Source of the DNA: Marinobacterium profundum
GTDB lineage: Bacteria; Pseudomonadota; Gammaproteobacteria; Pseudomonadales; Balneatricaceae
Reading direction: 5' to 3'
Assembly: GCF_001528745.1 (NCBI RefSeq)
Contig: NZ_BCNS01000091.1
Coordinates: 186,001 to 250,000 of the forward strand
Length of the DNA stretch: 64,000 nt
Shown: piece by piece, positions 32,129 through 41,858 of the stretch
Layout: the number at the start of each line of letters is the position of its first letter
How positions within the stretch are numbered: the first letter of the stretch is position 1
Position numbers and translations under genes: made by a program
Notes under the pieces: generated by a model
Database searches by the model: none
What the model was told of the DNA's origin: nothing
What the model saw: the letters and a program-made list of their open reading frames with translations, nothing else

Positions 32129-32283
32129 TTAAAGCGACCAGCGTACGGGTAATTCGGTGGTCGATTTCAGCGTCTGCAGCAGCAGGTTGGATTTGACGTT
32201 GGACACCATGGGCAGATTCAGCAGCCGGTGCAGGGTGACATCGGCGAAAGCCTTCAGATCTGGCGCCACTATTTTTAGCGCAC
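32129..32283 (-). pseudogene. Second 3' tail of the adjacent lrp gene
   Basis: On the minus strand this encodes the last 51 or so residues of the Lrp protein at 32308, starting LKIVAPDLKAFADV and ending at its own TAA. Bases 32130-32245 are identical to 32309-32424 of the intact gene. The next 36 bases differ at about ten sites, yet the encoded residues are the same from LKIVAPD onward. The homology then stops abruptly in unrelated sequence. It is a gene fragment with no start, left just downstream of the intact copy. Confidence 0.88.
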
Positions 32284-32307
32284 TGGGTGCCTGCAGCGCA
32301 GGCTATG

Positions 32308-32796
32308 CTAAAGCGACCAGCGTACGGGTAATTCGGTGGTCGATTTCAGCGTCTGCAGCAGCAGGTTGGATTTGACGTTGGACACCATGGGCAGATTCAG
32401 CAGCCGGTGCAGGGTGACATCGGCAAAGGCTTTCAAATCCGGTGCCACGATTTTCAGCATATAGTCTGCATCCCCCGCCACCCCCCAGCATTCGAGTACC
32501 TCGGGGTACTCTATAATGGCAGTACGGAATGCGTCGGCGATCTTCTCGCTGTGTTTGTCCAGCGATACGCTGACCAGTGCCATGACGCCAAGCCCGATCT
32601 TTTCCGGGTCCAGCTGTGCGATGTATTTGCACACCACCCCGGTTTCTTCCAGCTTCTGACGCCGCCGCTGACACTGGGACGCGGACAGGTGTACCAGCTC
32701 CGATAATTCCACATTACTGAGCCGGCCGTTTTGCTGTAGCGCCTCGAGAATTTTGATGTCCTGACGGTCGAGCGCAACGGAATGCGTGTTTCTCAC
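32308..32796 (-). CDS. Lrp/AsnC-family regulator divergent from hpd
   Basis: A 162-residue Lrp-type protein of normal length. HTH: LDRQDIKILEALQQNGR, then SASQCQRRRQKLE. The ligand-binding RAM domain ends LKSTTELPVRWSL. It faces away from the 4-hydroxyphenylpyruvate dioxygenase gene across a 168-base gap. This placement suggests that it controls aromatic amino acid catabolism in response to tyrosine or phenylalanine. A diverged second copy of its 3' end lies immediately downstream (32129-32283), and the stop codons differ (TAG here, TAA there). Confidence 0.9.
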   Translation of the reverse strand: MRNTHSVALDRQDIKILEALQQNGRLSNVELSELVHLSASQCQRRRQKLEETGVVCKYIAQLDPEKIGLGVMALVSVSLDKHSEKIADAFRTAIIEYPEVLECWGVAGDADYMLKIVAPDLKAFADVTLHRLLNLPMVSNVKSNLLLQTLKSTTELPVRWSL

Positions 32797-37182: not shown

Positions 37183-38700
37183 ATGAACGATGCGGTGACG
37201 AGTTTTGCGATCAATTTCATCGCAGTGATCGGTGTGCTGGTGCTGATTGTGCTGGTGGGCGCCGCAGTGGCGGCGTTGGCCTACTACCAGATCGACAAGC
37301 ATCAGACCAAACACAGCCTGAGGCGCAACTATCCGCTGGTGGGGCGCTTTCGCTACCTGTTTGAGCATCTGGGTGAGTTCTTTCGCCAGTACTTCTTTGC
37401 CATGGACCGGGAAGAAATGCCCTTTAACCGCGCCCAGCGCTCCTGGGTGTATCGGGCGGCCAAGAACATCGACAATACTGTCGCCTTCGGTTCGACCCGC
37501 GATCTGCGCACCCCGGGTACTTATTACTTCCTGAATTGCCCCTTTCCCAAGCTGTCCGAGGAGAGCACCCGTTCGGTGTCGATGCGCATAGGTCCTTATT
37601 GCACCGAGCCCTACGATGCGCCCTCCTGGTTCAACGTATCGGGCATGAGCTACGGCGCTCTGTCCAAACCCGCCGTACAGGCGCTGTCCCGTGGAGCCAA
37701 GCTGGCGGGCTGCTGGATGAACACCGGTGAAGGCGGTATTGCTCCCTACCACCTGGAAGGCGGCTGCGACCTGGTGTGTCAGATAGGAACGGCCAAATAT
37801 GGCGTGCGCGATGAGCATGGTCTGTTGTCCGACGACAAGCTGCGGGAGAAGGCCGCCATTGGCCAGGTGCGGATGTTCGAGATCAAGCTGTCCCAGGGCG
37901 CCAAGCCCGGCAAGGGTGGCATGCTGCCGGCGGAGAAAGTCAGTGAGGAAGTGGCCAGTATTCGCGGTATCCCTGCAGGCCATGCCTCCATCAGCCCCAA
38001 CCGCCATCCGGAAATCGACTCCATCGATGATCTGCTGGACATGATCGGGCATGTGCGCAGCGTGACTGGCAAACCCTGCGGCATCAAGCTGGTATTGGGG
38101 TCGGCGCACTGGCTGGACGATTTCTGTCAGTCGATTCATGACCGGGGCATAGAGTCGGCACCCGACTTTATCACTCTGGATAGCTCTGATGGCGGTACCG
38201 GTGCGGCGCCCATGCCGCTGATGGACAGCGTCGGCTTGCCGCTGCGCGAAAGCCTGCCGGTGCTGGTCAACAAGTTGCTGGAACATGGCCTGCGCGAACG
38301 TATAAGGCTGGTCGTGTCCGGCAAGCTGATCAATCCGACCGATGTGGCGGCGGCACTGTGCATGGGGGCGGACTTTATTGTCAGTGCCCGCGGTTTCATG
38401 TTCTCGCTGGGCTGCATCCAGGCCATGCAGTGCAATCGCAACACTTGCCCCACAGGGGTGACGACCCATGACCCGGACCTGCAACGCGGCCTGGTGCCCG
38501 CCGACAAGGCCGAGCGGGTGCGTCATTACCACGATAACCTGGTGCACGAGGTCGAGCTGATCGCCCACAGCTGCGGTGTTTCAGAGCCCAGACTGCTGAG
38601 GCGCGAGCACGCGGCCATGGTGGTGGAAGGTGGCCGTTCTGTGCCGCTAAATATTATCTATCCAGAGCCCCGGACCGATACGGGTACAGGGGTTGCGTGA
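37183..38700 (+). CDS. Membrane-anchored FMN-binding glutamate synthase-like protein
   Basis: A 505-residue protein. One N-terminal membrane helix (about residues 8-35) is followed by the alpha/beta barrel of the central/FMN part of glutamate synthase. The markers are FNVSGMSYGALSKPA, NTGEGGIAPYHLEGG, the SIDDLLDMI and LVLGSAHW region, SSDGGTGAAPM, and an NRNTCPTGVTTH segment. It lacks the glutamine amidotransferase domain, the GltB C-terminal beta helix and any GltD partner. It is thus a stand-alone domain protein of uncertain reaction rather than a complete GOGAT. The helix would anchor the barrel in the cytoplasm. A diverged second copy of its last 40 codons follows the stop. Confidence 0.85.
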   Translation: MNDAVTSFAINFIAVIGVLVLIVLVGAAVAALAYYQIDKHQTKHSLRRNYPLVGRFRYLFEHLGEFFRQYFFAMDREEMPFNRAQRSWVYRAAKNIDNTVAFGSTRDLRTPGTYYFLNCPFPKLSEESTRSVSMRIGPYCTEPYDAPSWFNVSGMSYGALSKPAVQALSRGAKLAGCWMNTGEGGIAPYHLEGGCDLVCQIGTAKYGVRDEHGLLSDDKLREKAAIGQVRMFEIKLSQGAKPGKGGMLPAEKVSEEVASIRGIPAGHASISPNRHPEIDSIDDLLDMIGHVRSVTGKPCGIKLVLGSAHWLDDFCQSIHDRGIESAPDFITLDSSDGGTGAAPMPLMDSVGLPLRESLPVLVNKLLEHGLRERIRLVVSGKLINPTDVAAALCMGADFIVSARGFMFSLGCIQAMQCNRNTCPTGVTTHDPDLQRGLVPADKAERVRHYHDNLVHEVELIAHSCGVSEPRLLRREHAAMVVEGGRSVPLNIIYPEPRTDTGTGVA

Positions 38701-38736
38701 GGCCGTGCTTGGGTAAGGCGTGGTGCGGACGCCGCT

Positions 38737-38865
38737 TCAGAGCCAAGACTGCTGCGGCGCGAGCATGCACATACTGAAGAGCCGCTGGTGGAAGGTGGCC
38801 GTTCTGTGCCGCTAAATATTATCTATCCAGAGCCTCGCACCGATGGAGGGGCAGGAATTGTGTGA
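38737..38865 (+). pseudogene. Second 3' tail of the GltB-like gene
   Basis: This segment repeats the last 42 or so codons of the gene ending at 38700: EPRLLRREHA, then VEGGRSVPLNIIYPEPRTD, and a different C-terminus ending GIV before TGA 38863-38865. The central part (38786-38834) is identical to 38621-38669. The flanks differ by base substitutions and a five-codon insertion. There is no start codon context, so it is a fragment of a diverged allele. Confidence 0.85.
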
Positions 38866-41576: not shown

Positions 41577-41858
41577 ATGTTCAGGATGAACGGGCCCTGA
41601 CATTAGCTCCTGCAATGTCAGGATTTCCGCCATCCATGGCGGTCATATCGCGGTCGCAGGGCCGTTTTTTGCTCCCGGCAAAAACGGCATTCAGGCCATT
41701 CCTGGCCCTTATGCGAAGGAGTGGTGCATGTTCAGGATGAATCTACCCTGACGGTAGGTTGGGTGAAGCCCCGAAGGGGCGTAACCCAACGATGGCCGTA
41801 ACCCAACAAGACACCATTGATGGGTTTCGCTGCGCTACCCCCATCCCAGCCGTACACA
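41577..41858. repeat. Intergenic repeat cluster between TRAP genes
   Basis: This stretch, part of a 341-base gene-free gap, has no coding potential. It holds a nine-base inverted repeat CCTGACATT / AATGTCAGG (41596-41622), two copies of ATGTTCAGGATGAA (from 41577 and from 41728), and a nested hairpin TTGGGT...GCCCC-GAA-GGGGC...ACCCAA (41759-41789) with a further CGTAACCCAA copy after it. The last element resembles short palindromic repeats scattered between genes in gammaproteobacteria. Confidence 0.55.

Follow-up and report, generated by a model that had tools for sequence, protein, structure and literature searches.

A second, degenerate copy of the 3' end of a glutamate-synthase-like (gltB-like) gene follows the stop codon of that gene in the analysed stretch of Marinobacterium profundum DNA (64,000 nucleotides, hereafter the window). 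We consider this copy, with a probability of about three in four, to have originated through a short tandem duplication within the organism's own chromosome, of which it is a remnant altered afterwards by decay and conversion. Repeated gene ends of this kind are about eight times commoner in the genus Marinobacterium than in its relatives. This genus-level excess is the interesting part of the finding, and a genus with such an excess is a natural test case for the formation, persistence and homogenisation of short tandem duplications. Truncated gene copies beside genes need not signal horizontal transfer.

The features of the gltB-like locus are:
37183..38700, forward strand: FMN-binding glutamate-synthase-like gene, 505 codons (open reading frame; Pfam Glu_synthase, E 3.8e-87)
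38580..38700, forward strand: last 121 nt of the gene, the functional copy of the tail and source of the duplicate (alignment)
38621..38669, forward strand: 49-nt core in the gene tail, identical to 38786-38834 in the remnant
38701..38735, forward strand: 35-nt spacer between the gltB-like stop and the remnant
38736..38865, forward strand: degenerate gltB-like tail remnant, 130 nt, joined to the native downstream flank

The initial annotation had described the end of the gene as being repeated after its stop with an identical core of 49 bases, and both statements hold: 38580-38700 recurs at 38736-38865, and the core measures exactly 49 nt. The five-codon insertion that it also listed was not recovered, the remnant differing from the gene tail by a net gain of 9 nt (three codons). 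The extra DNA proper comprises 38701-38865, the interval given earlier (38581-38865) beginning within the gene. The copies lie in direct, head-to-tail orientation with their core starts 165 bp apart and are 79% identical across an alignment of 132 columns (115 bits), a value that rises to 88% in the 80 nt from the core to the stop. The full duplicated segment occurs only once in the genome assembly, which is a draft of 226 contigs.

A parallel case at an lrp gene of the same window, likewise mentioned in the annotation, was confirmed on the opposite strand (span 32130-32458):
32308..32796, reverse strand: Lrp/AsnC-type regulator gene (open reading frame; Pfam)
32280..32307, reverse strand: spacer of 28 nt that separates the lrp stop from the remnant
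32130..32279, reverse strand: remnant of the lrp tail, sharing 95% identity with the tail of the gene and continuing into the native flank

These two cases were the only direct repeats of at least 40 nt reported in the window. Neither spacer showed significant similarity to the native downstream flank (an apparent match of the lrp spacer found by eye was not significant and was dropped), and neither folded better than shuffled sequences. No breakpoint direct repeats were recognisable at the gltB-like and lrp junctions, which are too decayed for their breakpoints to be read.

The comparison with congeners places the origin of the gltB-like duplicate. All six sampled congeners possess a single gltB-like tail, which in G001 and G003, the two nearest ones, directly joins the flank that is found after the remnant in the window genome. 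Thus either the lineage of the window genome gained the extra tail, or such a tail is older and disappeared from all the other congeners. Gene and remnant have four derived bases in common that are absent from four aligned relatives; the aligned tail furthermore contains six changes restricted to the remnant, one restricted to the gene and 12 ambiguous sites. Based on these common derived bases the two copies most likely split inside the lineage of the window genome, and neither appears to be imported divergent DNA. When import was tested, no copy grouped with a donor lineage, the derived bases uniting gene and remnant, and no donor of the gltB-like spacer was found among seven congeners. At the lrp locus, a related spacer and the same breakpoint as in the window genome (G000) were detected in G003, which carries two units of 260 bp together with older remnants. 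The DNA located 3' of lrp varies among the congeners, with a TonB receptor in some and another, probably glutamine-synthetase-like gene in G003 and G005 (L065, L068); the 3' end of lrp is therefore also a site of gene turnover.

Matching loci bear the organism names Marinobacterium rhizophilum and M. nitratireducens, which groups the genus with these species. A common scan, based on gene calls from a simple codon model and covering sampled 20-kb stretches of genomes, detected 13 gene-end repeats among three Marinobacterium genomes (1.12 Mb sampled) versus three in 2.10 Mb of other genera (rate ratio 8; binomial p = 2e-4, or 7e-4 without the window). Within the genus the repeats were distributed as four in 379 kb (window genome), two in 319 kb (G001) and seven in 419 kb (G002). 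Two genomes of other genera each contributed one in 400 kb and the third match came from 1.30 Mb comprising 78 loci, which all surround the same gene and are not a random sample of those genera; at least one of the outgroup matches is apparently of another kind (773 bp at 75%). With about 12 gene-end repeats per Mb in the genus, and their presence also in two single-contig genomes, the recurrent mechanism proposed in the initial annotation is supported.

The annotation had also referred to competence genes; one of them, comEC, does not track the repeats. It was identified in all seven congeners and just as well in two outgroups whose genomes are nearly devoid of such repeats, and mutS was present in all nine genomes (seven congeners and two outgroups). 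Since both genes occur throughout the congeners and in both outgroups, neither explains the excess, and a competence gene as distinguishing cause was rejected as was the loss of mismatch repair. A search of the open-access literature retrieved no reports of such arrays in Marinobacterium.

Both heads and tails of genes are repeated in the genus, some units extend over two genes, and arrays reach up to 12 units; the sequence differs from locus to locus. Tails are repeated at a CopB-like gene, a prolyl-tRNA-synthetase-like gene, an mmsA-like aldehyde dehydrogenase gene (followed in G000 by three tail remnants), an M16-peptidase-like gene (an array in G002 of 12 tails, with units of about 113 bp) and a murB-like gene (three tails of about 170 bp), the names M16-peptidase-like, murB-like, prolyl-tRNA-synthetase-like and mmsA resting on a reading of the sequence and not on a family search. 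Heads are repeated at fecE (four in G002, five in G006) and at a ferredoxin-like gene, and units that span the border and include both gene ends were found at apbE-nqrM, murG-murC and fecC-fecD. The copy carries along its own downstream flank at the murB-like, fecC-fecD, apbE-nqrM and mmsA-like loci, where the copies are separated by the sequence that also follows the second one. Many remnants are species-specific and contain indels.

Direct repeats of 6-7 nt, found by eye, mark the breakpoints of three loci (mmsA-like, M16-like and fecE) and are consistent with slipped replication or annealing. At the mmsA-like locus the repeat is GCGCTTT, and the copy begins at the junction of the terminator-like GGTGGCGCTTT, which is intergenic, with the coding GTGCGCTTTT. 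The repeat GGACAG of the 12-copy M16-like array was judged against single-copy orthologues: these end with ACGGACAGTGA and the G002 gene with ACGGACAGTCGGATTGA, matching an internal GGACAGCCTGATCGAGCAGC, while the last copy of the array goes back to the native GGACAGTGA. In fecE, TGGATG is present within the gene and at the start codon. The 12-copy array has also altered the C-terminus of the adjacent gene itself, the stop being shifted by two codons relative to the orthologues (L190 16741, G002).

Homogenisation of remnants with their own gene is clear at lrp and fecE. The lrp remnant of G003 is identical to its own gene at 151 of 151 positions, but is matched at only 141 of 153 by the G000 remnant, which shares its breakpoint; the fecE copies of G002 and G006 share 95-99% identity with their own gene versus 85-87% with the gene of the sister species. 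Taking these loci into account, the 49-nt gltB-like core and the long identical stretch at lrp are most simply regarded as conversion tracts. Across gene-remnant pairs, 122 of 229 differences (53%) fall on third codon positions and the remnants contain many indels, which roughly agrees with free decay of the remnant combined with synonymous change of the gene, as an expectation and not a formal test. Two remnants that are shared between species have diverged little, as was noted after the fact and for two loci: between G002 and G006, 3 of 63 sites differ in the degenerate half of the fecE unit (aligned intergenic DNA 19.4%), and an mmsA-like remnant differs between G000 and G001 at 7 of 122 sites (intergenic DNA 13.6%). 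Free decay does not predict this low divergence; either recent interspecies exchange or constraint would explain it. If the extra conservation holds up, it would suggest a role for the remnants or frequent exchange between species.

As the gltB-like tail is presumed to have arisen, a segment of roughly 100-200 bp reaching from the last codons to just past the stop would have been copied beside itself, with replication slippage or annealing between short direct repeats as the probable cause. The full gene end would thereby have stayed with the gene and a partial tail been displaced downstream. Duplications within genes would usually be ruinous, and those at gene borders, which leave both neighbours whole, could survive. 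The remnant would then decay through substitutions and small indels, and occasional recombination with the gene copy may re-homogenise stretches of it, giving rise to the 49-nt core and the long identical lrp stretch. A simple tandem copy predicts similarity between spacer and flank; since the window spacers are unlike the native flank, this reading has to allow for an additional event or for strong decay.

The initial annotation had instead suggested homology-assisted illegitimate recombination during uptake of related DNA, by which the end of a donor gene would have recombined in and been joined just past the stop, the old tail being truncated. Homology-facilitated illegitimate recombination occurs in natural transformation and could leave a truncated homologous tail beside a gene; here, however, no donor allele or imported tract was detected. 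Diverged copies with an identical core, the predominance of third-position differences at lrp (seven of eight, as between two coding alleles), the presence of comEC and window spacers unlike the native flank would fit such an event. They have to be weighed against the derived bases that gene and remnant have in common, the lack of a spacer donor among the seven congeners and the failure of comEC to follow repeat abundance. Furthermore, the occurrence of heads, of units covering two genes and of arrays with many copies is ordinary for tandem repeats, and other loci show short breakpoint repeats and copies with their own downstream flank. Uptake is thus unlikely, foreign DNA is not required for the explanation, and the earlier reading is probably wrong, although the allele of a very close, unsampled relative may have been imported at one locus. 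The scar of a lost site-specific element with the gene 3' end as its attachment site, comparable to prophage e14, which uses the icd 3' end, seems very improbable: a replaced gene end, an identical core and mostly synonymous differences do resemble attL/attR pairs, but the gltB-like site had no match in phage or plasmid collections and its copies are only 35 nt apart, and in the genus many unrelated genes are hit, gene heads are copied too and the copies lie tens of bases apart, up to 12 in tandem.

That the remnants are retained for a role in the 3' region of transcripts, for instance as regulatory or decoy RNA, is suggested by the lower divergence that the two shared remnants show between species in comparison with average intergenic DNA. 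We regard this as improbable given that many remnants are species-specific with indels, that the window spacers are without special folding and that the conservation test was post hoc, concerned two loci and can also be explained by recent interspecies recombination. It also appears unlikely that the genus keeps and spreads its own gene-end arrays for a use such as the tuning of transcript 3' regions; if it did, the shared remnants would be constrained, and repeats would be made at dozens of genes per genome by a process specific to the lineage. An assembly artefact, through mixed strains or an unresolved contig overlap, could be suspected from the 226-contig draft and from the confinement of the gltB-like duplicate to one sampled genome. 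It is hardly credible in view of the lrp junction, which is also present in another species (G003), and of the same kind of repeat in two single-contig genomes.

The preferred reading, a local tandem duplication, corresponds to short tandem duplications at short direct repeats in bacteria with respect to the head-to-tail copies of about 80-200 bp, the breakpoint repeats of 6-7 nt in three loci and the single-copy orthologues in relatives. It differs in that the repeats are concentrated at gene borders, are markedly enriched in one genus and include many old, diverged copies that have been kept. Mycobacterial MIRUs are short repeats at gene borders, some of them in tandem, and in this respect similar, but they constitute one dispersed family whereas each locus here has its own sequence. 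In Mycobacterium tuberculosis a VNTR, which is a minisatellite locus, lies between the genes rnc and fpg1 (PMC2734929). It resembles the present loci as an intergenic tandem array that occurs in some species and not in their relatives and begins shortly after a stop codon (PMC2734929); the unit here, however, recognisably comes from the adjacent gene, being its start or its end, and differs per locus.

Three further observations were made in the genus. In M. nitratireducens (G005, L068 5166-5376) a small gene located 3' of the gltB-like gene has a tail-like direct repeat of 93 nt at 89%. A second mmsA-like gene in G002 (L243), a paralogue, is followed by three tail remnants whose insertion resembles one in the remnants of the first gene, hinting at an exchange between the paralogous loci. 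Finally, repeats scattered over intergenic regions, with CCGTTCATCCTGAACAT and GACCGCCATGGATGGCGG among their motifs, are found repeatedly in the genus, at the following positions:
41577-41606 and 41728-41757 of the window: dispersed intergenic repeats
2922-3079 of L064: dispersed intergenic repeats
9221-9641 of L188: dispersed intergenic repeats
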